From Roseovarius sp. (GTDB lineage Bacteria; Pseudomonadota; Alphaproteobacteria; Rhodobacterales; Rhodobacteraceae), in contig JAJFIA010000002.1 of the NCBI GenBank assembly GCA_021775255.1, forward strand, positions 1-64,000: a DNA stretch of 64,000 bases. The letters run 5' to 3'. Numbering within the stretch: the first letter of the stretch is position 1; each line of letters opens with the position of its first letter. The translations under genes and the position numbers were made by a program. Below the pieces are notes generated by a model that had not been told where the DNA came from, did not search any database, and was given only the letters and a program-made list of their open reading frames with translations. This document shows, one piece after another, positions 11,919 through 44,800 of this stretch.

Positions 11919-11928
11919 ACAGATAACC

Positions 11929-11970: not shown

Positions 11971-11974
11971 ATAC

Positions 11975-23171: not shown

Positions 23172-23288
23172 TAAAGCGTTTCGAGATTAAGCCCAAATCG
23201 CAACTTGATCTTGAAACGCCCACAACATTAATAGGCTCCGCGCGTTTCACCTTATTGTTATCATCCAACAATAAGGCGAAACGCTTTA
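23172..23288. repeat. 117-bp two-hairpin element, copy 1
   Basis: Begins TAAAGCGTTTCG and ends CGAAACGCTTTA. It contains a left hairpin (GCGTTTCGAGATTAAG pairing with CTTGATCTTGAAACGC, some G-U pairs), a central unpaired stretch with ACAACATTAATAGG, and a right hairpin (CACCTTATTGTT pairing with AACAATAAGG). It is about 88 percent identical to the copy at 44684-44800, same length and orientation. It sits in the divergent gap between the acyl-CoA dehydrogenase and tsaC. Confidence 0.85.
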
Positions 23289-23352
23289 GCCATAGGGTAA
23301 TTGAACGCCCCCCGGCATCAACCAGAACGCGGCGTCAGAAGGGGAAAAAGGC

Positions 23353-24300
23353 TTGCAGACACGTCACCTCAGTGCTGATCCTTCAGGGTTTGATGCCGCC
23401 GCTGGCCTGTTGCGTGACGGCGCGCTTGTGGCTTTCCCGACCGAGACGGTTTACGGCCTTGGCGGCGATGCGCGCAGTGATATAGCGGTGGCGCGAATAT
23501 TTGAGGCCAAACAGCGGCCGCAGTTCAACCCATTGATCGTGCATGTAAATTCCATTGAATCCGCGCAAGAATATGTTGAATGGCCGGATATGGCAGATCA
23601 CGTTGCCCGCGCCTTCTGGCCCGGTCCCTTGACGCTTGTCTTGCCACTGAGGCCGGATGCGGGTCTGTCGCCTTTGGTCACGGCGGGCCTTCCAACCGTG
23701 GCCATTCGGGTGCCGGCGCATCCGGTGGCGCAGGCGCTGCTTGCGGCCTTTGGTGGCCCGGTGGCGGCCCCGTCGGCCAATCCATCGGGGCGGATCAGCC
23801 CGACAAATGCGGCCCATGTCGAGGCCGGGCTTGGCGGCCGGATTGCGGGTATTCTGGATGGGGGCACCTGCGGGGTTGGCGTTGAATCCACCATTTTGGG
23901 CCTGTCAGACACGCCCACCCTGCTGCGCCCCGGCGGTTTGCCGGTTGAGGCCCTTGAAGCCGCGCTTAACATGCCGCTTGAGAAACATATCAGCGGTGAT
24001 CCCCTGACCGCGCCGGGCCAGATGGCCTCGCATTACGCCCCCGGCGCGCGGGTGCGGCTGGAGGCCTTGGGTAAACAACCCGGTGAAGTGCTGCTGGGGT
24101 TTGGCGCAGTTGAGGCTGATCTCAATCTCTCGCCCGCCGGGGATCTGACCGAAGCGGCGGCCAACCTGTTTCATCACCTGCATGCGCTGGATGCCATGGG
24201 GGCCGATGTGATCGCCGTCTCACCTGTTCCAGATCAAGGGCTTGGCCGCGCCATCAATGACCGCCTGCGCCGGGCGGCTGCACCGCGTTTTGACAGCTAA
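23353..24300 (+). CDS. tsaC: L-threonylcarbamoyladenylate synthase
   Basis: A 315-residue Sua5/YrdC/YwlC enzyme making the threonylcarbamoyl-AMP used for t6A37 in ANN-decoding tRNAs. I accept the TTG start (MQTRHLSADPSG) because the alignment-like opening is typical and GAAGGGG precedes it. The YrdC domain shows AFPTETVYGLGGDA, KQRPQFNPLIVHV, WPGPLTLVL and AAPSANPSGRISPT. The C-terminal Sua5 domain follows (PGQMASHYAPGARV). The two-domain form is usual in many bacteria. It converges on rpoC across a bidirectional terminator. Confidence 0.94.
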   Translation: MQTRHLSADPSGFDAAAGLLRDGALVAFPTETVYGLGGDARSDIAVARIFEAKQRPQFNPLIVHVNSIESAQEYVEWPDMADHVARAFWPGPLTLVLPLRPDAGLSPLVTAGLPTVAIRVPAHPVAQALLAAFGGPVAAPSANPSGRISPTNAAHVEAGLGGRIAGILDGGTCGVGVESTILGLSDTPTLLRPGGLPVEALEAALNMPLEKHISGDPLTAPGQMASHYAPGARVRLEALGKQPGEVLLGFGAVEADLNLSPAGDLTEAAANLFHHLHALDAMGADVIAVSPVPDQGLGRAINDRLRRAAAPRFDS

Positions 24301-24315
24301 GGTCATCTTTCCCAC

Positions 24316-24336
24316 GTCCCGGACTTGATCCGGGAC
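24316..24336. repeat. CCCGGACTTGATCCGGG palindrome
   Basis: The bases tcccggacttgatccggga form a near-perfect palindrome just after tsaC. It matches the pair at 1081-1155 beside rplW. It lacks a T-run, so it is not an obvious terminator. Confidence 0.65.
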
Positions 24337-24351
24337 CCCTTGCCAAGCACC

Positions 24352-24466
24352 TAAAGCGTTTCGCCTTAAACCTGAGACAGGGTTAAGGCGAAACGCCATG
24401 TAACATATCAGTGTTTCGCGCGTTTCGCGACAAACCCGTTATTCAGGTTTATCGCGAAACGCTTTA
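24352..24466. repeat. 115-bp two-hairpin element, copy 2
   Basis: Begins TAAAGCGTTTCG and ends CGAAACGCTTTA. Left stem GCGTTTCGCCTTAA pairs perfectly with TTAAGGCGAAACGC; the centre contains GTAACATATCAGTG; the right stem GCGTTTCGCGACAAACC pairs with GGTTTATCGCGAAACGC. Stem interiors differ from the other copies but pair within the element. Lies between tsaC and the rpoC terminator. Confidence 0.85.
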
Positions 24467-24504
24467 AGCCCCGGCGCGGGGGCGGGTACATGGGGATACA
24501 CCCA

Positions 24505-24546
24505 AAACAAAAGGCCCCGCGAATTACACGCGGGGCCTTTCATAAT
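24505..24546. terminator. Bidirectional terminator between tsaC and rpoC
   Basis: Perfect 12-bp arms AAAGGCCCCGCG and CGCGGGGCCTTT enclose the loop aattaca. A-rich and T-rich flanks permit termination of tsaC (plus) and of the rpoBC transcript (minus), whose last stop is at 24564. Confidence 0.88.
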
Positions 24547-24563
24547 TAACTTATCAAACGGCT

Positions 24564-27500
24564 TTATTCTTCGCCGCCCTCAGGGGTTTCAGCAAAAACC
24601 CCAGCTTCTTGCGCGCCTGCCATTTCATCCTCGGAAGGTGCGGCAAGCGCTGCGGCTGCCTCGGCTTCAACCCGGCGGGCCTCGACCACGACATTATCCC
24701 GCTGCTGCGCTATATTGCGCATCTCCTGCGTCGCGCCACCGGTGCCAGCCGGGATCAGGCGGCCAACAATGACGTTCTCTTTCAGGCCAACCAGTTTGTC
24801 ACGCTTGCCCTGAACCGATGCCTCGGTCAGAACGCGCGTCGTTTCCTGGAAAGACGCCGCCGAGATAAAGCTGCGGGTCTGCAAGGATGCCTTGGTGATC
24901 CCCAGCAAAATAGGCTCGCCCTTGGCCATACGCCCGCCTTTTGATGTGGCCTTTTCATTGGCCTGATCAAATTCGAGCTTGTCCACATGCTCGCCCTTCA
25001 GAAGGGTGGTATCACCGCTGTCAAGGATTTCCCATTTCTGCAACATCTGGCGCACGATCACTTCGATATGCTTGTCGTTGATCTTCACGCCCTGCAGACG
25101 GTAGACCTCCTGCACCTCGTCGATCATGTAATTGGCAAGCGCCTCGACCCCCATGATGGAAAGGATATCATGCGGCGCCGGGTTGCCATCCATGATGTAA
25201 TCACCCTTCTGGACATAATCACCTTCCTGAACCGGAATATGCTTGCCCTTGGGCACCATGTATTCGACCGTTTCCTGTGTTTCATCCGCCGGTTCAATGC
25301 TGATACGGCGCTTGTTCTTGTAGTCGCGGCCATAGCGCACATAGCCGTCAATCTCGGCAATGATCGCGTGGTCTTTGGGGCGTCGAGCCTCGAACAATTC
25401 GGCCACACGCGGCAGACCACCGGTGATGTCCTTGGTTTTGGCCCCCTCGCGCGGGATCCGTGCAACCACATCACCGGCAACAATTTCCTGCCCTTCTTCA
25501 ACCGATAGAACCGCATCCACCGACATCGGATATGTTACCGGATTGCCCGCATCGTTGCGTACCGGTTCACCATCCTTGCCAACCACCAGTATTTCCGGCT
25601 TGAGCTCATTGCCTTTGGGCGCGGTGCGCCAGTCAATCACAACTTTTTGCGACATGCCGGTGGCATCATCGGTCACATCCCGCACCGCAACACCGGTGAC
25701 AAGATCGACATATTTGACCGTACCGGCTTTTTCCGCCAAAATCGGCAATGTGTAGGGATCCCATTCAAACATCTTGTCGCCGCGCGAGACCTTGGTGCCC
25801 TCTTTGACAAACAGCTTGGTACCATAACCCACCTTGTGACTGGCAAGTTCAACCCCGTTTTTACCGATGATCCGTATCTTCATATTGCGGCCCATAACCA
25901 GCATGGCCCCATCGGAATCTTCCAGCGTCTGGGCGTTGTCAAACTCGATCTTGCCTTCCCGACTGGCCTCAAGGAAGGATTGCTGACCGGCCTGTGCCAC
26001 ACCGCCGATGTGGAAGGTCCGCATCGTCAGCTGTGTACCCGGCTCACCAATGGATTGCGCCGCGATGATGCCCACGGCCTCGCCGGTATTGACCGGCGTA
26101 CCACGTGCCAGATCACGGCCGTAGCACATGGCGCATACCCCATCTTCGGCGTCACAGGTCAGCGGCGAACGAATGCGCGCATTTGGCACCAGTGCTTCTT
26201 CGACAGCATCGGCCATGTGTTCATCAATCAGCGTGGATTTCGCCACGATAACTTCGCCCGTTACCGGATGAATAATATCCTCAGCCGCAACCCGGCCCAG
26301 AATACGTTCACCCAATGTGGCAATGACTTCACCATCATTCACGGCCGCTTCTGAGGTGATTGACCGCTCGGTGCCGCAATCACGTTCACGGATGATGCAA
26401 TCTTGTGCCACATCCACCAATCGCCGGGTCAGATAGCCCGAGTTGGCGGTTTTTAGTGCGGTATCCGACAGGCCCTTGCGCGCGCCGTGGGTCGAGTTGA
26501 AATACTCCAGAACACTGAGGCCCTCTTTGAAGTTCGAGATGATCGGCGTCTCGATGATATCGCCGTTCGGTTTGGCCATCAGGCCACGCATACCGCCCAG
26601 TTGTTTCATCTGTGTAACCGAGCCACGCGCACCGGAATGGGCCATCATGTAAACCGAGTTCGGCTCCATCTCGGCGTTATTCTCATCACGTTTCGAGGCC
26701 GAAATCGCCCCCATCATGGCATCCGTCACCTGATCGTTACATTTTGACCAGGCATCGACAACTTTGTTATATTTCTCACCCTGAGTAATCAGGCCGTCCA
26801 TATATTGCTGTTCAAATCCTTTGACCTGATCGCGGGTTTCATCAACGATCCCCCATTTGCTGTCGGGGATTACCATATCGTCCTTGCCAAAGCTGATGCC
26901 GGCCTTGAACGCTTCGCGAAAGCCCATTGTCATGATCTGGTCACAGAAGATAACCGATTCCTTCTGCCCGCAATAGCGATAGACACTGTCAATCACCTGC
27001 TGCACATCTTTCTTGCGCAAAAGTTTGTTCACAAGGCTATAGGGAGCTTTGGCGTTTTTCGGCAGAAGCGCCCCAAGGCGCACCCGGCCCGGCGTGGTTT
27101 CCACTCGGATAAACTCTTCATTGCCTTCATCGTCAATCTGCGGAATACGCGCGATTATTTTGGCATGCAGATGTACTTCACCCGCGTCCAGCGCGTGCTG
27201 CACCTCGTCAAGGCAAGAAAACGCCATGCCTTCGCCCTTCATGCCCTCACGCTCAAGCGTGATGTAGTAAAGGCCAAGGATCATATCCTGCGAGGGCACA
27301 ATAATCGGCGCGCCGTTGGCGGGCGACAGCACGTTATTGGTCGACAGCAGCAGAACCCGGCATTCAAGCTGGGCTTCCAGTGAAAGCGGCACGTGAACAG
27401 CCATCTGATCGCCGTCAAAATCGGCGTTAAAGGCCGAACAAACCAGCGGATGCAGCTGAATCGCCTTGCCTTCGATCAAGACCGGCTCAAACGCCTGAAT

Positions 27501-28808
27501 GCCCAAACGGTGCAGCGTTGGCGCGCGGTTCAGCATTACGGGATGTTCGCGGATCACCTCGTCAAGAATATCCCAAACCTCAGGGCGTTCTTTCTCAACC
27601 AGTTTCTTGGCCTGTTTGACCGTCGAGGAAAGCCCCATCGCCTCAAGACGCGAGTAGATGAACGGCTTGAACAGCTCCAATGCCATCTTCTTGGGCAGGC
27701 CGCATTGATGCAGCTTCAGTTCCGGCCCCGTCACAATCACCGAGCGGCCCGAGAAATCAACCCGTTTACCCAACAGGTTCTGCCGGAAGCGGCCCTGTTT
27801 GCCTTTGAGCATGTCCGACAGTGACTTGAGCGGGCGCTTGTTGGCCCCGGCAATCACCCGACCGCGACGGCCATTGTCAAACAGTGCATCAACAGATTCC
27901 TGCAACATCCGCTTTTCATTGCGCACGATGATATCGGGCGCGCGCAGCTCAATCAGACGCTTGAGGCGGTTGTTGCGGTTGATCACCCGGCGGTAAAGAT
28001 CGTTAAGATCAGAGGTGGCAAACCGGCCCCCATCGAGCGGCACCAGCGGGCGCAGCTCTGGTGGGATCACAGGGATCACCGTCATCACCATCCATTCCGG
28101 GCGATTGCCGCTTTCCAGGAAGCTTTCAACCACTTTGAGGCGCTTGATGATCTTCTTGGGCTTCAATTCACCAGTGGCCACGGCCAGATCGGCACGCAGA
28201 TTTTCGGCCTCGGATTCCAGATCAATCTGGCTAAGCATTTCACGGATCGCTTCGGCACCGATGCTGGCGGTAAAGGCATCCATGCCATAGGCATCCTGGG
28301 CATCCATATACTCTTCTTCGCTGAGCATCTGGCCATAGTCGAGATCCGTGAGGCCCGGCTCGGTTACCACATAATTTTCAAAATACAGCACCCGCTCCAG
28401 ATCGCGCAGGGTGAGATCCAGCATCAGGCCAATGCGCGACGGCAGCGATTTAAGGAACCAGATATGCGCACAAGGTGCGGCCAGCTCAATATGGCCCATG
28501 CGCTCGCGCCGGACCTTTTGCAGCGTCACTTCCACGCCGCATTTTTCGCAGACAACACCGCGGTATTTCATCCGCTTGTATTTGCCACAGAGGCATTCAT
28601 AATCCTTGACCGGGCCAAAGATACGGGCACAGAAAAGCCCGTCACGTTCAGGCTTGAACGTGCGGTAGTTGATGGTTTCGGGCTTCTTGATCTCGCCATA
28701 AGACCAGCTCAGAATACGCTCGGGGCTGGCCAGAGAGACCTTGATTTCATCGAACACCTTGACCGGAGCAACCGGGTTGAAGGGGTTATTTGTCAGTTCC
28801 TGGTTCAT
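24564..28808 (-). CDS. rpoC: RNA polymerase subunit beta-prime
   Basis: I start at ATG 28808 ([13 protein letters not shown]), with GAGGAA upstream; the in-frame codons above it are not typical. The 1414-residue protein has the N-terminal zinc site (C72, C74, C87, C90), the catalytic [12 protein letters not shown] metal loop, bridge and trigger helices (around [17 protein letters not shown]) and the second zinc site including [13 protein letters not shown]. The tail is Ala/Glu rich. It is the last gene of the ribosomal/RNA polymerase operon, 91 bp after rpoB. Length agrees with alphaproteobacteria. Confidence 0.97.
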
Positions 28809-28849
28809 TTTCAATTCCTCGAATTCGGGCAAAGGGTGGGAGGGGGCCA

Positions 28850-28899
28850 AGATTTTTTAGAAAAAATCTTACCAAAAATTTTATTTAAAATTTTTGCCC
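28850..28899 (-). repeat. AT-rich tandem hairpins after rpoB
   Basis: Immediately after the rpoB stop, minus-strand DNA contains two adjoining A/T hairpins (AAAATTTT-type arms around attt, then AAGATTTTTT pairing with AAAAAATCTT), separated by three bases. The same layout follows the M3 peptidase gene at 53869-53914. They could slow polymerase or shield mRNA ends in the rpoB-rpoC gap; termination here would block rpoC, so full termination is unlikely. Confidence 0.65.
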
Positions 28900-31800
28900 C
28901 TACTCGTCTTCCTCTGCATCCAGGAGTTCCATGTTCAGACCAAGGCCACGGACCTCTTTAACCAGAACATTGAACGATTCAGGCACACCAGCCTCGAAAT
29001 TATCGTCGCCTTTGACTATGGATTCATAGACTTTTGTCCGGCCTGCCACGTCATCGGATTTCACCGTCAGCATTTCCTGCAAGGTATAGGCAGCACCGTA
29101 TGCTTCCAAAGCCCAGACCTCCATTTCCCCAAAGCGCTGACCACCAAACTGCGCCTTACCGCCCAGCGGTTGCTGGGTGACGAGGCTGTAAGGACCGGTT
29201 GAGCGGGCGTGGATTTTATCATCCACCAGATGGTGCAGTTTCAGCAGGTATTTGACACCAACGGTAACCGGACGGGCAAACTGTTCGCCTGTACGGCCAT
29301 CGTAAAGCACCGATTGTCCACTTGTGTCAAAACCCGCGCGCCTGAGCGCATCGTTGACATCAGATTCCTTGGCACCGTCAAATACCGGCGTTGCAATCGG
29401 CACACCGTGCGTCACATTCCCAGCGGCTTCAAGCAACTGATCCTCACCCATGTCCTTGATGCCCTCGTCGTAGACATCATCGCCATAGGCCGTTTTCATC
29501 GCCTCGCGCACCGGCGTCATATCACCTGAACGGCGATATTCCTGCAAAGCCTCATCAATCTTCACGCCCAAAGCCCGCGCGGCCCAGCCCATGTGGGTTT
29601 CCAAAATCTGGCCCACATTCATCCGGCTGGGAACGCCAAGCGGGTTGAGACAGAAATCAACCGGTGTGCCATCGGCCAGAAACGGCATGTCTTCCATCGG
29701 CACAACCTTGGAGATCACACCCTTGTTACCATGACGGCCCGCCATCTTGTCGCCGGGCTGCAGCTTGCGCTTGACCGCGATGAATACCTTGACCATCTTC
29801 ATCACGCCCGGTGGCAGATCATCCCCCCGGCGGACTTTTTCGACCTTATCTTCAAACCGCGCATCCAAAGTGCGTTTTTGCACCTCATATTGCTCGTTCA
29901 GAGCCTCAACGATCTGGGCATCCTTTTCGCCCTTCAGTGCCAGTTGCCACCATTGGCCTTTGGTCAGGGTTTCCAGCAATTCCTCGGTGATTTTCGAGTT
30001 GGCCTTGACCCCTTTCGGACCTTTGACAGCAACCTTGCCCATGATCAGCGATTTCAGACGGGCATAGATATTGCGATCCAGGATCGCCAGCTCGTCATCA
30101 CGGTCACGCGCCAGGCGCTCAACCTCTTCACGCTCGATCTGCAGGGCGCGCTCATCTTTCTCAACGCCGTGGCGGTTGAATACACGTACCTCAACCACGG
30201 TGCCAAAATCACCGGGCTTCACCCGCAATGATGTATCACGCACGTCGCTGGCTTTTTCGCCAAAGATGGCACGCAGCAGTTTTTCTTCCGGCGTCATCGG
30301 GCTTTCGCCCTTGGGGGTGATCTTACCCACCAGGATATCGCCCTGCTCCACGTCGGCACCGATATAAACGATGCCGGCCTCATCAAGGTTGCGCAGCGCT
30401 TCTTCACCCACGTTTGGAATATCACGGGTGATCTCTTCGGGGCCAAGCTTGGTATCGCGTGCGGCCACTTCGAATTCCTCGATATGCACCGATGTGAACA
30501 CGTCATCGCGGGCGATGCGCTCGGAGATCAGGATCGAATCTTCGTAGTTATAGCCATTCCATGGCATGAAGGCGGCAATCACGTTTTTGCCCAGGGCCAG
30601 CTCGCCCATATCGGTTGAAGGGCCATCGGCAATCACTTCGCCTTTGACCACCGTATCACCCACCTTCACCAGCGGTTGCTGATTGATGCAGGTGTTCTGG
30701 TTCGAGCGCTGGAATTTGCGCATGCGGTAGATATCCACACCGGCATCGCCCATCTCAAGATCTTCAGTGGCCCGCAGAACGATCCGAGTGGCATCCACCT
30801 GATCAACAATCCCGGCGCGTTTTGCCATGATCGCAGCACCCGAATCGCGGGCCACGACACCCTCGATCCCGGTGCCGACAAGCGGCGCCTCGGAACGCAG
30901 GGTCGGCACCGCCTGTCGTTGCATGTTCGAGCCCATCAGGGCGCGGTTGGCATCATCGTTTTCAAGAAACGGAATCAGCGAGGCCGCAACCGAGACAAGC
31001 TGTTTGGGGCTGACGTCAATCAGATCGACATTTTCACGCGGCGACAGCCTGTAATCACCCGACTGGCGCGTCGATACCAGATCGTTGATGAAATTACCCT
31101 TGTCATCCAGCGAGGCATTGGCCTGCGCCACGGTGTGACGCATCTCTTCGGTGGCCGACATATATTGCACTTCGTCGGTCACATGGCCGTTTTCAACGCG
31201 GCGGTAAGGGGTTTCAATGAAGCCGTATTTATTGACCCGCGCGAATGTCGCCAGAGAGTTGATCAGGCCAATGTTCGGCCCCTCCGGCGTTTCAATCGGA
31301 CACATCCGGCCATAATGGGTGGGGTGCACATCGCGCACCTCAAAGCCCGCGCGCTCGCGCGTAAGCCCCCCCGGCCCAAGCGCCGACAGGCGGCGTTTGT
31401 GGGTGACTTCCGACAAGGGGTTGGTCTGGTCCATGAACTGGCTTAGCTGACTTGAGCCAAAGAATTCACGCACCGCGGCAGCGGCCGGTTTGGCATTGAT
31501 CAGGTCCTGCGGCATCACCGTGTCGATCTCAACGCTCGACATGCGTTCCTTGATCGCACGCTCCATGCGCAACAGGCCCACACGGTACTGATTTTCCATC
31601 AGCTCGCCAACCGAGCGCACCCGGCGGTTGCCAAGGTGGTCGATATCATCAATGTCGCCCTTGCCATCGCGCAGGCCCACAAGCGCCTTGATGCAGGCGA
31701 CAATGTCTTCGCGGTCCAGCGTGCGCTGCGTATCAGGCTTGTCAAGGTCAAGGCGCATATTCATTTTCACCCGGCCAACAGCCGAGAGATCATAACGCTC

Positions 31801-33036
31801 ACTGTCAAAAAACAGCGTGTCAAACAGCGCTGATGCGGCATCTTCGGTGGGTGGCTCACCGGGGCGCATGACACGGTAAATATCCATCAGTGCGGTGCTG
31901 CGGTTCATGTTCTTATCCGCCGCCACGGTGTTGCGCATGTAGGGGCCGACATTGATATTGTCGATGTCAAGCACCGGAATATCGGTGATCCCCGCATCCA
32001 GCAATTCCTGCAGGCTACCGCCGGTAACCTCACCTTCCTTGTCATATTCCAGCGTCAGCTCATCCCCGGCTTCGACATAAATCGCACCGGTTTCTTCATT
32101 GATGATGTCCTTGGCCACGAATTTGCCCAGGATATGTTCGTAAGGCACCAGCAAATCCTTGACCTTGCCCTCGTCAATCAGCTTCTTCACCGCCCGCGGC
32201 GTCACCTTCTTGCCGACTTCCGCAATCACCTTGCCGGTCTTGGCATCGACCAGATCAAACAGCGGGCGGGTGCCGCGCACACGCTCCGGGAAAAACGGCA
32301 TGATCCAGCCCTTGTTCTTCTTCAGCTTGAACTGAACCGTGTCATAATAGGCATCCATGATGCCTTCCTGATCCAGGCCCAGCGCATAAAGCAGGGTTGT
32401 CACCGGCAGTTTGCGGCGGCGGTCGATGCGGGCGAAAACAATATCCTTGGCGTCAAATTCAAAATCCAGCCACGAGCCGCGATAGGGGATAATACGGCAG
32501 GCAAACAAGAGCTTGCCCGATGAGTGGGTTTTGCCTTTGTCATGGTCAAAGAAAACACCGGGCGAGCGGTGCATCTGGCTCACGATCACCCGCTCGGTAC
32601 CGTTGACCACGAAAGTGCCGTTGGGGGTCATCAGGGGCATATCGCCCATGAACACATCCTGTTCCTTGATGCCCTGAACCGATTTGGCACCTGTATCGTC
32701 ATCAACATCAAACACAATCAGGCGCAGGGTAACCTTCAGCGGCGCGCTATAGGTCATGTCGCGCTGCATGCATTCTTCTACGTCATATTTCGGTTTTTCC
32801 AGGTCATAGCTGACAAATTCCAGCACACTGGTTTCATTGAAATCCTTGATCGGGAATACCGACTGGAACACACCATTGATGCCTTCGCCATCCATCGGCT
32901 CGGGCTGATCACCGGACTTCAGGAACAAATCATAAGATGATTTCTGCACCTCAATAAGATCTGGCATTTCAAGGACTTCGCCAATTTTGCCGTAATATTT
33001 ACGCAAACGCTTCTGGCCGATATAGGTTTTAGCCAT
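28900..33036 (-). CDS. rpoB: RNA polymerase subunit beta
   Basis: I use ATG 33036 ([19 protein letters not shown]), with AAGGTGAC upstream, over a GTG 12 bases earlier. The 1378-residue subunit has the rifampicin region [19 protein letters not shown] through [11 protein letters not shown], in sensitive-type sequence as in E. coli, then [19 protein letters not shown] and the C-terminal [20 protein letters not shown]. It follows rplL after a gap containing hairpins and repeats, and precedes rpoC. Essential core enzyme subunit; no oddities in the protein. Confidence 0.97.
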
Positions 33037-33175
33037 GGTCAATGTCACCTTTCATTTCTCACCGGTCATGTTGCTGTCGGGGCACAGCAACAGGGCCATT
33101 CGAGAGGATGGGTTTTGATCAATTCGTGGCACCCGCGTCCCATCACGAGGCCTCCCGATCATATGAACCAATCCT

Positions 33176-33249: not shown

Positions 33250-33273
33250 TTGTTCTTGATGGGTTGCGGCCGC

Positions 33274-33338
33274 GGTGGGTTTCACCCACCCTACAATCCG
33301 CCATCACCGTCACCCCCGTAGGGTGGGTGAAACCCACG
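33274..33338. repeat. Inverted pair of GTGGGTGAAACCCAC palindromes
   Basis: GGTGGGTTTCACCCACCCTA at 33274 and TAGGGTGGGTGAAACCCACG at about 33319 are inverted copies of one another, each itself palindromic. They match units in the str operon (3323, 4561). They lie directly after the rplL stop, in its 3' untranslated region. Confidence 0.75.
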
Positions 33339-33343
33339 CTTGC

Positions 33344-33724: not shown

Positions 33725-33795
33725 TTTTGACTCTTTCGTTTTCAAGTTGTGTTCTAACGTCGGGCAATCACCCTACGCGAAGTATTTCAGTTGCT

Positions 33796-35338: not shown

Positions 35339-35339
35339 C

Positions 35340-35765: not shown

Positions 35766-35872
35766 CTGGCCTCTCCTTCATATCCAACACCTTCGGGGCG
35801 CGCCCCTCAGGCCTTAAGTTGTCGTGGTCCGGTTTGGGTGCCGCGGCCCCCTCGCCTCCCACGCTTTTCACG

Positions 35873-36406
35873 TCAGGTTTGTTTGGTAACCTGCGTAAAT
35901 TCCAGTTCGACCGGGGTTTCCCGGCCAAAGATCGAAACCGTCACCTTCAGGCGCTGGTTGTCTTCGTCCACTTCCTCGACCTGACCGTCGAAATCCTCAA
36001 ACGGCCCGTCATTGACCTTGACCTTCTCGCCCACCTCATAGTGGATCAGGGTGCGCGGCGAATCTTCGCCTTCCTGCACCCGGTTGAGGATCACGTTCAC
36101 CTCGGCATCGCGCATCGGCATCGGCCGGCCCTGCGGGCCCAAAAAGCCGGTCACACGGTTGATCGAATTGATCAGGTGATAGCCATGATCCGACATCTCC
36201 ATCCGCACCAGCACATAGCCGGGCATGAAGCGGCGCTCGGCGGTGACTTTCTTGCCGCGGCGCACTTCGATCACTTCTTCCGTGGGCACCAGTACTTCTT
36301 CGATATCGTCCTCAAGGCCGTTCTCGATGGCAGAGGTTCTGATCTGCTCGGCAATCTTCTTCTCGTAATTTGAGAGAACACTGACCGAATACCACCGTTT
36401 TGCCAT
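35873..36406 (-). CDS. nusG: Transcription antitermination factor NusG
   Basis: A 177-residue NusG with the NGN domain ([20 protein letters not shown], then [16 protein letters not shown]) and a C-terminal KOW domain ([20 protein letters not shown]). NusG binds RNA polymerase and Rho or NusE/S10, coupling transcription to translation. It lies between secE (263 bp upstream) and rplK (107 bp downstream). A predicted terminator sits in the secE-nusG gap, so nusG may need its own promoter. Confidence 0.97.
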
Positions 36407-36482
36407 TGCTCAACTTGCCCTCATCTGTGCCAGCTTGCCGGCCAAAATTAATATATTACAGGCAGTTACGCCCTTACATCCG

Positions 36483-36522
36483 AAACAAAAAGCGGCGCGC
36501 AACCCGAATCATTGCGCGCCTT
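36483..36522 (-). terminator. Terminator between secE and nusG
   Basis: On the minus strand perfect 9-bp arms GGCGCGCAA and TTGCGCGCC enclose a nine-base loop and run into GCTTTTTG. It lies about 150 bp after the secE stop and 75 bp before nusG. This would uncouple two genes that are usually cotranscribed. Confidence 0.75.
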
Positions 36523-36590
36523 GTTCCAATCTGTGCCGTCACCTACCGCCCTTCGCCTGTGATTTCAAGGGTCCAAACAGATATTTCCAC

Positions 36591-36637
36591 TAAAGTGTTT
36601 CGGGATTAACCTGAGCCCAAAGTTGATTTCAAAACGC
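36591..36637. repeat. Fragment of the two-hairpin family (left arm)
   Basis: TAAAGTGTTTCGGGATTAAC followed by a loop and TTGATTTCAAAACGCC matches the left hairpin of the 117-bp elements, with several mismatches. No right arm is seen. A decayed copy in the secE-nusG gap. Confidence 0.6.
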
Positions 36638-36669
36638 CCTGTTCCGATCCATCATGACTGTCGGCAATT

Positions 36670-36867
36670 TCATCCAAACAGATTCAATATGCCCTGCAAA
36701 CCGTTGCGGATAAGTATATCAATCACTGAAAAGAAGATCGCCGTCAGTGTCGCCATGATAAAGACCATCACCGTCGTCAGCATCACCTCACGGCGGGTTG
36801 GCCAGATAACCTTGGATATTTCCGATCGGGTTTGCTGGATGAACTGAAGCGGGTTTGTACGTGCCAT
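36670..36867 (-). CDS. secE: Preprotein translocase subunit SecE
   Basis: A 65-residue SecE of the short, single-helix type common in alphaproteobacteria. It begins MARTNPLQFIQQTRSEISKV, has the conserved VIWPTRREVMLTTVMVF amphipathic-to-membrane junction and one transmembrane helix (about residues 30-58). SecE clamps the SecY channel. nusG follows on the same strand as usual, but a terminator and a repeat fragment lie between. Upstream is a 93-bp gap to an uncharacterised gene. Confidence 0.94.
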   Translation of the reverse strand: MARTNPLQFIQQTRSEISKVIWPTRREVMLTTVMVFIMATLTAIFFSVIDILIRNGLQGILNLFG

Positions 36868-36960
36868 TTGCGCTTTCTTCTCATGTTGATTGCTACTTGA
36901 TTGCTACGCGCCACATACGCGGGCAGATTGGCAAATTCAAGGGCCGATCTGAATTGCCGG

Positions 36961-37716
36961 TTATCTCTGTTCGCGCTCCTGCCGGGCCTCGGCGGCCAGC
37001 TTTTCAAACGGGTCCGGGCCTTCACGCAACTGATCCTGCGTCTGGTCGTCACTGGAATAATCCGGCAGGCGCAGGCGTACAGCCCACCTGCCCGGCACCC
37101 GGCTCAACACAGTATTCACCCGCTTCACAATGGCCTGAAAACGATGCCTGATTTTCTCGGCCCGCTCCGGATTGCGCGCCTGTATTCCAAGCCAACGCCC
37201 GTAAACAAGCTCAGAGATGCGATCCGGGCCAAGGCTCAGCCAGATGATTGCAAGCAGCAGCAACAAGGCAAATATGGATATGGGTATCAGCCATGGCCGG
37301 AAAAATACAACCAGAGCCAGTATCGCAAAGACAATGTGCTTTGCCGTCGGCCGATAGGCAATTACCTTTGCAACAACCGGCTTCAGCACCCCCCACAACA
37401 TGCCCCGGAAAGAGGATGAGGCCCTGCTGATCTTCCCCGCACCCCGGTGATTGCCCTCTGATTTCCGTTCTGCGGGCCGCTTCGTTGCGATGGTTTTGCG
37501 TATGAGCCCCGCAAGCCTGAGTTTTGAGGGCGGTATGCCTTTTTTACCACCTTCCTGATCATCCATGACATTGCGGATTAGCCCCAGAAGACTGTCATGT
37601 GCGGCCGCTCCTTCAATTTCATTACGGCGCTCTTCCTCATAGCACCCGCCGGGCATTTCACGGCTTGACCGGGCAAAGCCCTCAAGCGGATATGAATGGT
37701 TTTCAGCGTTTGCCAT
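36961..37716 (-). CDS. Uncharacterised basic membrane protein
   Basis: A 251-residue protein I do not recognise. The first 100 residues are polar and charged, with many Lys/Arg and Glu. Two adjoining hydrophobic stretches follow (AKHIVFAILALVVFFRP and LIPISIFALLLLLAIIWLSL, about residues 124-162), so two membrane helices are likely. The C-terminal part is Arg-rich (RNPERAEKIRHRFQAIVKRV) and ends in a charged EKLAAEARQEREQR. It is divergent from mreB and upstream of secE. A link with cell shape is only a positional idea. Confidence 0.75.
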   Translation of the reverse strand: MANAENHSYPLEGFARSSREMPGGCYEEERRNEIEGAAAHDSLLGLIRNVMDDQEGGKKGIPPSKLRLAGLIRKTIATKRPAERKSEGNHRGAGKISRASSSFRGMLWGVLKPVVAKVIAYRPTAKHIVFAILALVVFFRPWLIPISIFALLLLLAIIWLSLGPDRISELVYGRWLGIQARNPERAEKIRHRFQAIVKRVNTVLSRVPGRWAVRLRLPDYSSDDQTQDQLREGPDPFEKLAAEARQEREQR

Positions 37717-39079
<1,363 letters not shown>

Positions 39080-39082
<3 letters not shown>

Positions 39083-39197
39083 AGCGTTTGCGAGTTTATG
39101 TTGGAACAGCGTAAACTTGCAAACGCAGTGCAACATATCAACGTGGTGGGCGTTTCCAGCAAACGCTGTGATTGAAACGTTTACTGGAAACGCTTTA
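39080..39197. repeat. 118-bp two-hairpin element, copy 3
   Basis: Begins TAAAGCGTTTGC, the TAA being the mreB stop, and ends GGAAACGCTTTA. Left stem GCGTTTGCGAGTTTATG pairs with CGTAAACTTGCAAACGC (two G-U pairs); centre contains GCAACATATCAACG; right stem GCGTTTCCAGCAAACG pairs with CGTTTACTGGAAACGC. Inner stem sequence differs from other copies while pairing is kept. It fills most of the mreB-mreC gap. Confidence 0.85.
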
Positions 39198-39222
39198 GGG
39201 CCTCTGACGAAAGGGCCTCCTT

Positions 39223-40140
39223 TTGGCGAAGGACAGAGCACATAACGGCGATTACACCGGCCCTTTGAAGCGTTTGCTGGTTGGGGTGCTGGCGCTGTGC
39301 CTGCTTGGCGTTTTTCTGGTCTGGCGGATCGACAGCCCCAGGGTCGAGCGCTTCCGGGCGCAGGTGATTGACAAGGTGGTGCCAAGCTTTGACTGGGCCA
39401 TGGCGCCGGTCACCGGTACGGTGAATATCCTGCGCGATTTCCAAAGCTACCAGCGGATTTACCAGCAAAATCAGGAGTTGCGCCGCGAGTTGCAGCAAAT
39501 GAAGGCCTGGAAAGAGGCCGCCCTTCAACTGGAACAGGAAAACGCCCGCCTGCTCGATCTCAACAATGTGCAGCTTGATGCGCGCCTGACATTTGTTACC
39601 GGCGTGGTGCTGGCCGATAGTGGCTCGCCTTTCCGGCAATCGGTGCTGATCAATGTGGGTGCGCGCGATGGTATCGTGGATGGCTGGGCGGCAATGGACG
39701 GGCTTGGCCTTGTCGGGCGCATTTCAGGCGTGGGCAACAATACCGCGCGGGTTATCCTTCTTTCCGATACCTCAAGCCGCACCCCCGCCCTCATTCAGCC
39801 CTCGGGGCAGAAAGCGTTGATCGCAGGCGACAACACCATTGCCCCGTTGATTGAATTTGTCGAAAACCCCGATAAAATACGCCCCGGTGACCGGGTGATG
39901 ACATCCGGCGATGGCGGCGTGTTTCCGGCTGGCCTTTTGATCGGGCAGGTCGCCAAGGATCCGTCCGGGCGCATCCGCGTGCGCCTCGCCGCCGATTATG
40001 AGCGGCTTGAGTTTCTGCGGGTTTTGCGCAGCTATGGCCATGACGCCATTACCGGCACGGGGCAGGTTATTGCTCCACCACCGCCGCAGGATGAAAACAT
40101 GACCGCCACCGATGAAGAAGGGGAAGATAGCGATGGCTGA
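39223..40140 (+). CDS. mreC: Rod-shape determining protein MreC
   Basis: A 305-residue MreC with an N-terminal membrane helix (LKRLLVGVLALCLLGVFLVW), a periplasmic coiled coil (YQQNQELRRELQQMKAWKEA) and the beta-barrel domain holding DGWAAMDGLGLVGRISGVG and RPGDRVMTSGDGGVFPAGL-type MreC sequence. It links MreB to penicillin-binding proteins in the periplasm. The start is weakly defined because the repeat ends just upstream. Its stop overlaps the mreD start by eight bases. Confidence 0.94.
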   Translation: MAKDRAHNGDYTGPLKRLLVGVLALCLLGVFLVWRIDSPRVERFRAQVIDKVVPSFDWAMAPVTGTVNILRDFQSYQRIYQQNQELRRELQQMKAWKEAALQLEQENARLLDLNNVQLDARLTFVTGVVLADSGSPFRQSVLINVGARDGIVDGWAAMDGLGLVGRISGVGNNTARVILLSDTSSRTPALIQPSGQKALIAGDNTIAPLIEFVENPDKIRPGDRVMTSGDGGVFPAGLLIGQVAKDPSGRIRVRLAADYERLEFLRVLRSYGHDAITGTGQVIAPPPPQDENMTATDEEGEDSDG

Positions 40141-40672
40141 TCGTGCAATTTCTCATCTTTGGCTCATGCGGTTCATCTGGCTTGGGCTGTGTCTGGTGCT
40201 GATTATCCTGCATTTGCTGCCGCTCGATACCACGCCCAAAGGCTGGGCCGCGCCGCAACTGATCCTTGCGCTGACATTTGCCTGGGTCCTGCGGCGGCCG
40301 GATTATGTGCCGCCCCTGATGATTGCGCTGGTGTTTTTGCTGACAGATTTTTTGTTTCAGCGCCCGCCGGGGCTTTGGGCGGCGCTGGTGCTGATCAGCT
40401 CCGAGGCCTTGCGCGCCCGTGCCACCCGGCTGCGCGATCTGGCCTTTGCGGCAGAATGGCTGCATGTTGCCATAACGCTTGTGATCATAACGCTCATCTA
40501 CCGTGTGGTGCTTATGCTATTGCTGATAGATCAGGCCCCTCTTGGCCTCAGCCTGATTGAGATGATCATGACGCTGATCGCCTATCCTTTGGTTGTGCTT
40601 ATCTCGCAAATCCTGTTTCGGGTGCGCAAACTGGCCCCCGGAGATGTGAACGCCATGAGGCAAAGCCTGTGA
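40133..40672 (+). CDS. mreD: Rod-shape determining protein MreD
   Basis: I start at ATG 40133 (MADRAISHLWLMRFIWLG), with AAGGGGAAG upstream. The 179-residue protein is an integral membrane protein with about five helices, the usual MreD profile (LHLLPLDTTPKGWAAPQLIL, LRRPDYVPPLMIALVFLLTD). It is a membrane partner of MreC in the elongasome. It overlaps mreC by eight bases and mrdA by four, showing tight translational coupling. Confidence 0.92.
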   Translation: MADRAISHLWLMRFIWLGLCLVLIILHLLPLDTTPKGWAAPQLILALTFAWVLRRPDYVPPLMIALVFLLTDFLFQRPPGLWAALVLISSEALRARATRLRDLAFAAEWLHVAITLVIITLIYRVVLMLLLIDQAPLGLSLIEMIMTLIAYPLVVLISQILFRVRKLAPGDVNAMRQSL

Positions 40673-42612
40673 AACATCCCCTCCGCGATACCGCCGAAAG
40701 CCAGCGCCGGATTACCCGCCGGGGGCTGATCCTTGGCGGCGGGCAGATCGGATTCATGGGGCTGTTGGCGTTGCGGATGCGTTATATGCAGGTGGAACAG
40801 GCCGATGAGTTTCGCCTTCTGGCCGAGGAAAACCGCATCAGCATCCGCCTGATCACCCCGGCACGCGGCCGTATTTTTGATCGTAACGGTGCGGTGATTG
40901 CGCAAAATTCGCCCAGCTACCGGATCAATATGGTGCGTGAACAGGCCGGTGATGTGGATAATATCATCGCCCGCCTTGCCCGTTTGGTTGAGCTTGACGC
41001 GGATGAGCTTGAACGCGCCCGGCGCGAATTGCGCGACCTGCGCGGCGATACCGAGGTCACGATCGCCGATCGGGTCAGTTGGGAAGATATCAGCCGGGTG
41101 GCGGTGAACGCCCCTGCCCTGCCCGGTGTCACCCCCGAGGTCGGCCTGTCGCGGCATTACCCGGCGGGGGCGGATTACGCCCATATCGTTGGCTATGTCG
41201 GCCCGGTCAGCGACCGCGACCTTGAAAACATTGACGCCCCGGATCAGCTTCTGCTGATCCCCCGGTTTCAGATCGGCAAGATCGGGGTCGAGGCCAAACT
41301 CGAAGACGTCCTGCGCGGCAAGGCCGGGACCAAACGGGTTGAGGTCAATGCCAGCGGCCGGGTCATGCGCGAGCTTGACCGCCAAGAGGGTCAGGCCGGT
41401 GCAGATGTACAGCTCACGCTTGATAATGAACTGCAATCTTATGTTCACGCCCGGCTGGCGGGTGAAAGTGCCGCCGCCGTGGTGATTGATTGCGAAACCG
41501 GCGATTTGCTGGCCTGCGCCTCAACCCCCGGATTTGACCCTAATTTATTTGTGCGCGGCATATCGGTCGCGGATTACAAGGCTTTGCTGGATAACGAATT
41601 CCGCCCCCTGCCCAACAAGGCGGTTCAGGGTGTCTATCCGCCGGGGTCAACCTTCAAGATGGTGACCGCGCTTGCCGCATTGGAAGATGGCCAGCTTGAT
41701 GCCGGTGACACCGTGCCTTGCCGGGGCTTTATTAAAGTCAGCAACCGCAGGTTTCATTGCTGGAAACGTGCGGGTCACGGCAATGTCAATCTTCTGCGCA
41801 GCCTGCGCGAAAGTTGCGATGTATTTTACTATGAAATGGCGCTGCGCACCGGGATTGAAAAGATCAGTGCCATGGCCCGCCGTCTGGGACTTGGGCAGGT
41901 GTATGATCTGCCGATGACAAGCGTGGCCAAGGGGCTGGCCCCGACCAAAGAATGGAAAGAGGCCGCCAAGGGCGAAGAATGGGTGATCGGCGATAGCGTC
42001 AACTCGGCCATTGGGCAGGGGTTTGTGCTGGCCTCGCCTTTGCAACTGGCGGTGATGATTGCGCGTATTTCCACCGGGCGGTCGGTTATGCCGCGCCTGG
42101 TCAAATCCATTGACGGGATTGAACAACCATTGGGCACGGGCGAGGATATGGGCCTTAATCCCAACAATCTGCAACAGGTGCGCAACGCCATGTTCGAAGT
42201 GTCAAACAACCGCCGTGGCACGGCTTACCGCAGCCGCATCATCGAAGATGCGTACCGCATGGCCGGCAAAACCGGCACCAGTCAGGTGCGCAATATCACA
42301 GCGGCCGAGCGTGCCCGGGGCGTGACCCAAAACAGTGATTTGCCATGGGAGCGGCGCGATCATGCGCTGTTCGTGGATTTCGCACCGTTTGATAATCCCA
42401 GGGTCGCGGTGGCGGTGGTGGTTGAGCATGGCGGTGGCGGCTCGGTTGCGGCGGCCCCGATTGCACGCGACATCACCTTGCAGGCGCTTTATGGCGAAGA
42501 CCCGCCGCTTGACGCCTATCCCGCCGCGGACCGGGACAGCATCCGCGAACAGCAGGAAAAGCTGCGCCGCGACCGGCCAGCCTCCGGCACAGATGAAAAT
42601 GACCGCGCATGA
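40669..42612 (+). CDS. mrdA: Penicillin-binding protein 2 (transpeptidase)
   Basis: A 647-residue class B PBP making lateral-wall cross-links. After a short cytosolic part comes one membrane helix (LILGGGQIGFMGLLALRM), a pedestal domain, and the transpeptidase domain with S327-x-x-K330 (PPGSTFKM), S443-V-N and KTGTSQ near residue 534. Starts with GTG and overlaps mreD by four bases (GTGA), and rodA by four (ATGA). The order mreD-mrdA-rodA fits the elongasome, with RodA as its glycosyltransferase partner. Typical target of amdinocillin-like beta-lactams. Confidence 0.96.
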   Translation: MKHPLRDTAESQRRITRRGLILGGGQIGFMGLLALRMRYMQVEQADEFRLLAEENRISIRLITPARGRIFDRNGAVIAQNSPSYRINMVREQAGDVDNIIARLARLVELDADELERARRELRDLRGDTEVTIADRVSWEDISRVAVNAPALPGVTPEVGLSRHYPAGADYAHIVGYVGPVSDRDLENIDAPDQLLLIPRFQIGKIGVEAKLEDVLRGKAGTKRVEVNASGRVMRELDRQEGQAGADVQLTLDNELQSYVHARLAGESAAAVVIDCETGDLLACASTPGFDPNLFVRGISVADYKALLDNEFRPLPNKAVQGVYPPGSTFKMVTALAALEDGQLDAGDTVPCRGFIKVSNRRFHCWKRAGHGNVNLLRSLRESCDVFYYEMALRTGIEKISAMARRLGLGQVYDLPMTSVAKGLAPTKEWKEAAKGEEWVIGDSVNSAIGQGFVLASPLQLAVMIARISTGRSVMPRLVKSIDGIEQPLGTGEDMGLNPNNLQQVRNAMFEVSNNRRGTAYRSRIIEDAYRMAGKTGTSQVRNITAAERARGVTQNSDLPWERRDHALFVDFAPFDNPRVAVAVVVEHGGGGSVAAAPIARDITLQALYGEDPPLDAYPAADRDSIREQQEKLRRDRPASGTDENDRA

Positions 42613-43748
42613 GCTATCTTGAATATTCCGTTAAATCCATACCCACGGGATTGCGCAAAATCCTCTATCTCAACTGGCCGCTGACAATCCTGCTGATCGC
42701 GGTGGCAAGTGTTGGGTTTTTGATGCTTTATTCCGTCGCCGGCGGCTCGTTCACGCCCTGGGCCGAGCCGCAGATGAAACGCTTTGCCCTGGGTCTGTTT
42801 CTCATGCTGAGCGTGGCGATGGTGCCGATCTGGTTTTGGCGCAATATGGCTGTTCTGGCCTATGGAAGCGCCCTGTTACTTTTGATGTTGGTAGATCGAT
42901 TGGGATCCGAGCGCATGGGCGCGCAGAGGTGGATTGATTTGGGCTTCATGGTCCTGCAACCATCTGAATTAATGAAGATAACTCTGGTGATGCTGTTGGC
43001 TGCCTATTATGACTGGCTGCCGCTTAATCGCACATCAAAGCCGTTTTGGGTGCTGCTTCCGGTGATCTTCATCCTGATCCCCGTGGCCCTTGTCATCCGG
43101 CAGCCCGATCTTGGAACCGCAATATTGCTGCTTACCTCGGGGGCGCTGCTCATGTTTCTGGCCGGGGTTCACTGGGCCTATTTTGCCAGCGTGTTTGCGG
43201 CGGTCGCGGGGCTTGTCACCACCGTGTTCAAAAGCCGGGGAACCGATTGGCAAATGATCAAGGATTATCAGTTCCGCCGGATAGATACATTTCTTGATCC
43301 TTCCAGTGATCCGCTTGGCGCGGGGTATCATATCACCCAGTCAAAAATTTCATTGGGATCAGGGGGGTGGTCCGGGCGTGGCTTCATGCAGGGAACGCAA
43401 TCACGGCTGAATTTCCTGCCCGAGAAGCATACCGATTTCATCTTTACCACCCTGGCCGAAGAGTTTGGCTTTGTGGGGGCGTTCTCACTTTTATGCCTTT
43501 ACGCCCTGATCATCGTGTTTTGCATCTCGGCGGCCATGTCAAATCGTGACCGGTTTTCATCGCTGCTGATCCTTGGCATCGCGGCCACGTTTTTCCTGTT
43601 TTTCGCCGTTAACATGTCGATGGTCATGGGGCTTGCCCCGGTGGTTGGCGTGCCTTTACCATTGGTCAGTTATGGCGGCTCGGCGATGCTGGTGCTGCTG
43701 ATTGGTTTCGGCCTTGTACAAAGCGCTCACATCCATAAACCAAGGTAA
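42609..43748 (+). CDS. rodA: Peptidoglycan glycosyltransferase RodA
   Basis: A 379-residue SEDS-family polymerase with about ten membrane helices. Signatures include YGSALLLLMLVD, LGSERMGAQRWIDLGFMVLQ, PSELMKITLVMLLAAYY, RQPDLGTAILLLTSGALLMF, and the C-terminal GLAPVVGVPLPLVSYGGSAM. It polymerises glycan strands together with PBP2. Last gene of the mre operon, overlapping mrdA by four bases; ghrA begins five bp later on the same strand and might be cotranscribed. Confidence 0.96.
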   Translation: MSYLEYSVKSIPTGLRKILYLNWPLTILLIAVASVGFLMLYSVAGGSFTPWAEPQMKRFALGLFLMLSVAMVPIWFWRNMAVLAYGSALLLLMLVDRLGSERMGAQRWIDLGFMVLQPSELMKITLVMLLAAYYDWLPLNRTSKPFWVLLPVIFILIPVALVIRQPDLGTAILLLTSGALLMFLAGVHWAYFASVFAAVAGLVTTVFKSRGTDWQMIKDYQFRRIDTFLDPSSDPLGAGYHITQSKISLGSGGWSGRGFMQGTQSRLNFLPEKHTDFIFTTLAEEFGFVGAFSLLCLYALIIVFCISAAMSNRDRFSSLLILGIAATFFLFFAVNMSMVMGLAPVVGVPLPLVSYGGSAMLVLLIGFGLVQSAHIHKPR

Positions 43749-43753
43749 TATCA

Positions 43754-44686
43754 ATGCCCGTTAACATCCTGTTTGCCGCCCATGCCGAGCGCTGGGAAAC
43801 CTATGAAAACCCTTTGAATACAGCACTTTCCAACGCTGGAGTACAGGCCAACCTCAGCACCGACATTGCTCCCTTTGAGGTGGATTATATCGTCTATGCC
43901 CCCAACAGCGATGTGCAGGATTTCACCCCCTTCACCCGCGCCAAGGCGGTGCTGAATCTCTGGGCCGGGGTTGAGGATGTGGTGGGCAATACCACCCTGC
44001 GCATCCCGCTGGCGCGGATGGTGGATGGCGGGCTGACGCAAGGCATGGTGGAATGGGTTACGGGGCATGTGCTCAGGCATCATCTCAACACCGATTTGCA
44101 GGTGCTTAACCAAGATGGGATCTGGCGCAAGCATATCCCACCGCTGGCCTGTGACCGGCCGGTTGCCATTCTTGGGCTGGGGGTGCTTGGGCAGGCCTGT
44201 GCAAAGGCGCTGGCGGGGCTTGGGTTTGACGTGTCAGGCTGGAGCCGATCCCCCAAGGACGTGCCGGATATTACCTGCCTCAATGGCGATGACGGGTTGC
44301 AACAGGCGCTGAAACGTGCAGGAATTATCGTTTTATTACTGCCATTTACGCCGCAAACCGAGAATATCATCAACGCCGGCGCTCTGTCCCTGATGCCCAA
44401 GGGTGCTGTGATCATCAACCCCGGGCGCGGGCAGTTGATTGCGGATGAGGCGCTGTTGAATGCGCTTGATCAGGGCCAGATCGGACATGCTACTTTGGAC
44501 GTGTTTCGGCAAGAACCCTTGCCGCCGGAACATCCCTTTTGGGCGCATGACAAGGTGACGGTGACGCCGCATATTGCTTCGGAAACACGGGCGAAAACGG
44601 CGGCGGAAGTGATTGCCGAAAACGTGCGCCGGGGCGAGGCGGGAGAGCCTTTTTTGCATCTGGTGGATCGTGATTTAGGTTACTAA
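43754..44686 (+). CDS. ghrA: Glyoxylate/hydroxypyruvate reductase A
   Basis: A 310-residue D-2-hydroxyacid dehydrogenase. The NAD(P)-binding motif is LGLGVLGQACAKALAGLGF, with GWSRSPKD after strand 2 suggesting NADPH preference, and catalytic Arg, Glu and His lie in INPGRGQLI, RQEPLPPEHPFW and VTPHIASET. It reduces glyoxylate or hydroxypyruvate to glycolate or glycerate. It starts five bp after rodA, probably read-through rather than shared function. Its TAA stop is supplied by the first bases of a two-hairpin repeat. Confidence 0.9.
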   Translation: MPVNILFAAHAERWETYENPLNTALSNAGVQANLSTDIAPFEVDYIVYAPNSDVQDFTPFTRAKAVLNLWAGVEDVVGNTTLRIPLARMVDGGLTQGMVEWVTGHVLRHHLNTDLQVLNQDGIWRKHIPPLACDRPVAILGLGVLGQACAKALAGLGFDVSGWSRSPKDVPDITCLNGDDGLQQALKRAGIIVLLLPFTPQTENIINAGALSLMPKGAVIINPGRGQLIADEALLNALDQGQIGHATLDVFRQEPLPPEHPFWAHDKVTVTPHIASETRAKTAAEVIAENVRRGEAGEPFLHLVDRDLGY

Positions 44687-44800
44687 AGCGTCTCAAAATT
44701 AAGCCCAAATCACAACTTGATCTCGAAACGCCCACAACATCAATAGGTTCCGCGCGTTTCGCCTCATTGTTGTGATCCTACAATGAGGCGAAACGCTTTA
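44684..44800. repeat. 117-bp two-hairpin element, copy 4
   Basis: Begins TAAAGCGTCTCA (TAA is the ghrA stop) and ends CGAAACGCTTTA. Right stem GCGTTTCGCCTCATTGT pairs perfectly with ACAATGAGGCGAAACGC; the left stem is less perfect. The centre reads ACAACATCAATAGG. About 88 percent identical to copy 1. It occupies the whole convergent gap between ghrA and the SseB-like gene and could act as a bidirectional transcription end. Confidence 0.85.

Follow-up and report, generated by a model that had tools for sequence, protein, structure and literature searches.

Within the first 64,000 nucleotides of contig JAJFIA010000002.1 of Roseovarius sp. (assembly GCA_021775255.1; hereafter the window), four copies of a repeat of 115 to 118 bp each contain two hairpins, whose stems differ from copy to copy yet pair within each copy. 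What are these repeats, by what means could they have spread, and what keeps their stems paired? An earlier examination of the window without database searches (the sequence-only reading) had offered two answers, selection on structure or a mobile element copied through a folded form. Comparison with other genomes and plasmids leads us to regard the repeats, with a probability of roughly 0.87, as non-autonomous miniature inverted-repeat transposable elements (MITEs) of the IS630 (Tc1/mariner-type) family. Dispersal, recent mobility, one clean TA duplication, a target rule and ends in common with IS630 elements can be read directly from the sequences compared; that an IS630 transposase moves the repeats, we infer. 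The copies and remnants in the window are the following.

23172..23288, + strand: full copy, 117 bp; left hairpin 23176-23219, right hairpin 23242-23284 (limits as judged from the letters)
24352..24466, + strand: full copy, 115 bp; left hairpin 24356-24396, linker 24397-24419, right hairpin 24420-24462
24352..24379, + strand: left terminal inverted repeat of this copy, 28 bp, like the IS630 left end (...AACCTGAGACA)
24439..24466, - strand: right terminal inverted repeat of the same copy, 28 bp (...AACCTGAATAA), resembling the IS630 right end (...AACCTGAATCG) less clearly than left resembles left
39080..39197, + strand: full copy, 118 bp; left hairpin 39084-39126, right hairpin 39150-39193
44684..44800, + strand: full copy, 117 bp; left hairpin 44688-44731, right hairpin 44754-44796
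11929..11971, - strand: half element, right hairpin only, 91% identical to query positions 78-120; weak model match at 11928-11998 (E 0.036)
36591..36672, + strand: weak left-half remnant (covariance model E 0.0136)

As the sequence-only reading had described, the four full copies have TAAAGCG and CGCTTTA ends, two hairpins and a centre containing AACAT, and all lie in the same orientation within the window; genome-wide, copies are found on both strands. The two fragments it had listed fared unequally, since the one at 11929 is a right-hairpin half element while 36591 holds only a weak trace of a left half (E 0.014). With up to two mismatches allowed, the window contains TAAAGCGTTTC 22 times where 11.2 would be expected, and none of 100 shuffles reached that number. 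The linker sequence differs among subfamilies.

Both strands of the strain's own genome (3.396 Mb in 27 contigs, 99.7% complete; genus Roseovarius) were searched with a covariance model built from 20 copies (E up to 0.1), a check that the sequence-only reading had proposed. The 134 matches fall into 74 places, further copies among them; 63 places measure 108-121 bp, and 53 of those are distinct. The repeat is thus present in many dispersed copies, each too short to hold a transposase gene. Eleven places carry letter-identical 115-bp copies in unrelated flanks and have therefore been reached by recent movement; the copy at 24352..24466 is a member of this active subfamily. Elements were also picked by their 11-bp ends alone, with a spacing of 101-131 bp permitted. 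Their length proved to be clustered, and not fixed as had been supposed: 101 of 107 such elements measure 113-118 bp, the others 105 (three), 111 (one) and 128 bp (two).

Mobility, suspected from the start, is also apparent on plasmids of Aliiroseovarius crassostreae, whose strains differ at a given site, some having the element there and others not. At one clean site, filled in three of seven aligned plasmids and empty in four, the empty form reads CAAAT-TA-ATTTTGC (CAAATTAATTTTGC; letter-exact in two of the four empty records, the other two having nearby substitutions) and the filled form CAAAT-TA-AAGCG...CTT-TA-ATTTTGC, with TA on both sides, that is, a TA duplication. This site alone would fit a TTAA duplication as well, but a fixed TTAA target is ruled out because the bases outside the TA vary over 212 ends. 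At these ends the base preceding the TA is C in 108 cases, T in 83, A in 21 and G in none, and nothing is conserved further out.

Elements with similar ends and a similar target were found among IS630 insertion sequences (ISs). Celeribacter persicus, which also carries the MITE, harbors an IS630 element of 1,100 bp with these ends on both sides, and similar elements of 1,053-1,058 bp reside on plasmids of Roseovarius, Sulfitobacter, Pseudosulfitobacter, Paracoccus, Roseivivax, Octadecabacter and Dinoroseobacter. The end pair is present at 11 of the 13 IS loci examined (L277 and L281 are without it), and all 11 IS copies with the end pair are flanked by Y-TA...TA-R. The conjugative plasmid pow41 of Octadecabacter bears both the MITE and an IS630 element. 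The MITE end consensus is TAAAGCGTTTCG...T.aactTGA..CAc; those of the ISs are TAAAGCaTTTCta.TTTAACCTGAG.CATA (left) and TAaAGCgTTTCga..aAAaCCTGAATCG (right). In the active subfamily, the left end is identical to the IS left end at 26 of 28 positions (Celeribacter) or 25 of 28 (Octadecabacter pow41), the right end at up to 22 of 28; ends of other subfamilies match less strongly. Further in, over positions 13-28, 106 own-genome ends agree with the best IS end at 9.89 of 16 bases, compared to 6.57 for shuffled ends (maximum of 200 shuffles, 6.95). Left-to-left identity of the active subfamily exceeds left-to-right with 10 of 11 ISs; the assignment of sides rests on this end, because the right-end comparison is mixed. 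The abstract of a study of ISY100, an IS630-type element, reports insertion into TA with TA duplication in vitro (PMC2170065). Terminal sequences, duplicated TA and target rule alike speak for an IS630 (DDE) transposase, so that movement can be accounted for without the copying through a folded form that was proposed earlier.

On present evidence, the enzyme would be an IS630 transposase encoded elsewhere, often on roseobacter plasmids, which would recognise the terminal repeats of about 28 bp, excise the element and insert it at a TA not preceded by G, duplicating the TA. With an inverted copy just inside each terminal repeat, the element forms two hairpins, which are separated by a linker of about 22 bp. 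The transposase probably reads the outer 12 bp and the loop (positions about 22-28), both of them conserved in sequence; the upper stem can vary as long as pairing holds.

Several observations weigh against this interpretation. DDE_3, the IS630 transposase domain, has no match in the strain's own genome and, among 24 genomes of the genus, is present in five of 13 with the MITE and six of 11 without; none of 19 DDE_3 loci of the genus, some of them cut by contig ends, has these ends on both sides. DDE_3 is present in three of eight named genomes examined and a parent IS630 with these ends in just one, that of C. persicus, where the parent element contains an in-frame stop codon; A. crassostreae has an IS630 with a different end pair (L239). 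The plasmid-borne relatives are not independent, because they were fetched by similarity to the Celeribacter element, and two of 12 (the above L277 and L281) lack the end pair. Right-to-right identity of the active subfamily is above right-to-left with six of 11 ISs, tied with two and below with three, and the other three window copies match the IS ends only moderately beyond the core. A second polymorphic site (two filled, three empty of five aligned) is consistent with TA duplication but not base-exact, and the TA at all 212 ends was imposed by the construction of the search. Finally, the fall in inner-stem stability as ends decay is only a weak trend (Spearman 0.22, p 0.11, n 53).

Other candidate movers were rejected. 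DDE_Tnp_1 (PF01609) has one match in the own genome, at a locus without these ends; PF13340 has two, and the one locus examined has none of these ends. An IS near a few A. crassostreae copies lies beside one copy in locus L157, has other ends and is located elsewhere in L167; in L157 (1354-1400) this IS, starting near CAGGCTGCTGAAATAG, directly adjoins the MITE end. Among the best 60 and the best 25 neighbouring frames, inspected by eye and not by family search, no shared transposase frame was recognised beside the copies apart from that IS; the transposase entries in one of the neighbour-frame compilations stem from loci retrieved through PF01797. The own genome's solo ends, considered as separate elements, and a 2.8-kb end pair in A. 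crassostreae, considered as a parent, turned out to be chance matches, single-hairpin forms and partial or separate copies only. Within C. persicus, a degenerate IS630 relative contains a MITE-like copy in its transposase gene (L241, about 1867-1979), and a short palindromic stretch around CCAGTGGGGCGTTTCCCCGA, which may be another small inserted repeat, recurs in reading frames, including an IS630 transposase stretch (L238 near 983 and 2014; L241).

We then come to the hairpins. In the MITE, an inverted copy of each terminal repeat stands next to that repeat, which gives the two hairpins; the IS ends have no adjoining inverted copy. The inner arms terminate in GAAACGC/GCGTTTC, which belongs to the terminal repeat. 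Among 20 own-genome copies, 90.6% of stem cells are paired, and the covariation score is 0.364, compared to 0.170 in shuffles (none of 500 as high) and 0.046-0.106 when partners are slid by one to three columns. In a MAFFT alignment of 32 elements the consensus structure comprises the left hairpin only and the right arms appear misaligned, for which reason an alignment-free test was used: in 101 elements chosen by their ends only, inner arms form 6.76 of eight pairs with their own partner and 4.42 with swapped partners (maximum of 200, 4.72). The pairing of each stem with its own partner, noted at first in four copies, thus holds across the family. It does so with a variable mid-stem, one position of which is, for example, CG in 27, AT in 14 and GC in seven of 64 hairpins (32 clusters).

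How the stems change depends on divergence. Of 469 stem differences between hairpins at most 8% apart, 152 are single changes paired in both copies, 251 are paired in one only and 54 in neither; the others are 11 double changes that leave one copy unpaired, and one compensatory change. Random single changes in the same hairpins would be paired in both copies in 29% of cases, in one in 65% and in neither in 7%; the observed figures are 33%, 55% and 12%. The compensatory share of stem differences rises from 1/469 (up to 8% divergence) to 8% (8-16%), 25% (16-30%) and 40% (30-60%); these comparisons are descriptive, because they share sequences and assume unbulged arms. Near-random change between close copies together with rising compensation suggests that settled copies drift almost freely while still-jumping lineages keep the structure, so that selection seems to act on the latter. 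The first of the two original proposals, selection on structure, consequently fits the jumping lineages and fits resident copies less. Since pairing persists between lineages over long times while close copies change almost at random, the hairpins are probably of use to the element, either in moving or in surviving its arrival.

Could the stems instead serve the host, each copy being a functional structured RNA (a terminator, an mRNA stabiliser or a small RNA)? The strong covariation, the mostly intergenic positions, many of them directly at gene 3' ends, and the slight excess of pair-keeping single changes between close copies (33% vs 29%) would all fit. Yet the stems of close relatives change nearly at random, with one compensatory change in 469, the distribution is patchy, the right hairpin is followed by TTTA only, with no U tract, and the repeat has no Rfam match above the gathering score. 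Wobble pairs read on one strand are, moreover, mirror-symmetric about the centre (left hairpin, GU 198 and AC 95; right hairpin, GU 84 and AC 183), unlike what selection on one transcript would leave. When read from the ends inward, the excess of GT over AC is modest (89 vs 58 over 32 clusters), is driven by few positions and is not used as proof. A host RNA function is improbable in this light, drift in settled copies arguing against it at most sites. The same drift argues against mutation as the main cause of pairing, that is, template switching in quasi-palindromes that copies one arm onto the other with no selection involved. Near-perfect inverted repeats such as these arms are the substrate of that process; it should, however, yield double changes between very close copies, where one in 469 was found (in sequences that overlap between comparisons, hence not a formal test), and we consider it unlikely.

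A less distant rival, though one that we still doubt, holds that the inner arm is a second double-stranded transposase site, the arms matching because the same protein reads both and not because they fold. The GAAACGC/GCGTTTC termini of the inner arms, shared with the terminal repeat, are as it predicts; the mid-stem, highly variable yet paired, is not, since a site being read should be constrained. The layout of the repeat also recalls that of REPINs, with TAAA as the REP head followed by hairpin, linker, inverted hairpin and head, and in the excerpted text of PMC3116915 REPINs are described as two inverted repeats forming one mobile unit, with singlets as remnants and with compensatory changes. 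Movement as a folded single strand by a REP-associated Y1 tyrosine transposase (RAYT), for which the sequence-only reading had suggested looking, is nevertheless highly implausible. Y1_Tnp (PF01797; E up to 0.001) has no match in this 99.7%-complete genome while five of 14 control genomes match, and it does not track the repeat, being present in two of 13 genus genomes with it and three of 11 without; the TA duplication and IS630-like ends would also be unexpected. We thus retain the IS630-family MITE as the best explanation.

The repeat was found in 13 of 40 relatives, the own genome included: 13 of the 24 in the same genus, and none of the 16 that represent other families of the class. Within the family, 13 of 295 sampled genomes carry it, a lower bound because just 12 candidates were scored in each. 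An ends-only scan of named genomes returned at least 105 stretches; among the 80 titles listed, 77 name genera or families of Rhodobacterales, one is an unspecified alphaproteobacterium and two are metagenome bins labelled Planctomycetota and Verrucomicrobia. Nine plasmid records carry the repeat by one query and 11 by another at a laxer limit, while a viral collection gave no match to one exact end pattern and a phage collection none to one blastn query. In A. crassostreae, 51-bp single hairpins bearing both terminal repeats were observed, four among the end places listed (L245, L246, L247 and L248), in a genome that has 186 such ends. They are either deletion products across 7-bp repeats or a minimal mobile unit.

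Genes around the 107 elements picked by their ends were called with a simple codon model. Ninety-one elements are clearly intergenic, eight overlap the end of a called gene, one lies within a called gene and seven are at the locus edge. At 29 of the 91 the neighbouring gene's stop codon is the element's TAA (34 of 116 gene 3' ends in all), while stop codons make up 8% of the available target sites outside coding sequence, stop codons counted in. Because each end begins with TAA when read inward, an element that lands in the TA of a stop codon re-creates a TAA stop there and would do no harm. Harmlessness is the simplest reading of these insertions; targeting of stop codons is a conceivable alternative. 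Two window copies are of this type: the stop codon of mreB (38036-39082) is formed by the first three bases, TAA, of the copy at 39080..39197, with mreC downstream, and that of a D-2-hydroxyacid dehydrogenase-like gene (43754-44686) by the TAA of the copy at 44684..44800. By gene calls and Pfam, the copy at 23172..23288 is flanked by divergent genes, acyl-CoA dehydrogenase-like (- strand) and Sua5-like (+ strand), and that at 24352..24466 sits between the convergent Sua5-like gene and rpoC. On A. crassostreae plasmids, an element copy (matches H113 and H114) lies under an annotated putA gene, so that some copies may touch coding sequence.

Other features of the window were noted in passing. 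Its one Rfam match is a Rhodo-rpoB cis-regulatory RNA (RF03074) at 33067-33161 (- strand), just upstream of the large gene in the rpoB position (28900-33036, - strand). A dispersed motif, CTTTCATTTTTCCAAAAATACTCAAA, occurs at 57434-57463 and 61871-61900, as well as in L229 and, partly, in the flank upstream in L029. The stretches at 3302-3348 and 33294-33340 are copies, 79% identical, of a second palindromic repeat (GTAGGGTGGGTGAAACCCAC-like). Those at 8973-9019 and 46158-46204 form an inverted pair (77% complementary) with many TTGTACAA-like boxes, which may be operators of a single regulator.

A description of this repeat family was not found in the open-licence literature, a search outside of which lay subscription papers and ISfinder. 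The kind of element is nonetheless already known from RUP of Streptococcus pneumoniae, a repeat of 107 bp for which excerpts of a review give many copies, ends similar to an IS630 element, a TA target and proposed mobilisation by IS630-Spn1 (PMC2229807). RUP comes from another phylum and has another sequence. The IS630 elements on roseobacter plasmids, such as those of Roseovarius sp. THAF8 and Octadecabacter sp. SW4, share the terminal repeat and the Y-TA-R target but are about 1.05 kb long, contain a DDE_3-type gene and have no inverted copy beside the terminal repeat. Closer in layout are the CIR repeats, reportedly described by Chen and Shapiro in 2003 and known here through the review. 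In its excerpted text, CIR1-4 are CcrM-associated intergenic repeats of Caulobacter, Brucella and other alphaproteobacteria whose mobility is left open (PMC2229807); compared by description only, they resemble the present repeat in length (about 110 bp), host class, intergenic position and two long arms with a linker; the GANTC that the review places in the loop of one CIR arm is seen here in part of the elements. The same text presents repeats other than CIR as without arms or linker, the stem arising from the two ends, whereas here each end folds on itself with a linker between the arms; its CIR section names no parent transposase (PMC2229807). MITEPye1 of Paracoccus yeei is likewise a MITE from the same bacterial order that can fold as RNA, but in the portions of PMC11578231 consulted it has IS1182-family ends and one to three chromosomal copies.

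A further point of difference from CIR lies in this GANTC, which only 43 of 102 elements in one set and 22 of 53 in another possess (65 of 155). Yet 56 of 70 GANTC sites are centred exactly 25 nt from the element end, and 10 of 11 IS right ends, but no left ends, have GANTC at that same place (the ISs are mutually related). Since GANTC totals are near the shuffled expectation (46 vs 38.4 and 24 vs 21.2), the signal is positional only. A speculative prediction is that CIR repeats might be two-armed IS630-family MITEs whose loop GANTC belongs to the right-end sequence that the transposase reads, in which case methylation by CcrM, a cell-cycle enzyme, could time transposition to replication and the self-folded ends would be selected during jumping. 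For some insertion sequences, Dam sites time transposition to replication.

A probable moving enzyme can thus be offered for a two-armed repeat layout whose mobility was previously open, and the prediction for CIR elements that follows points to a possible origin of an unexplained repeat class in related bacteria. The lack of an IS630 match in a genome with 11 identical copies suggests that bursts of copying are driven by visiting plasmids. The family further appears to be a natural example of structural covariation that stems from selection on mobility and not from host RNA function, a caution for covariation-based searches for noncoding RNA.

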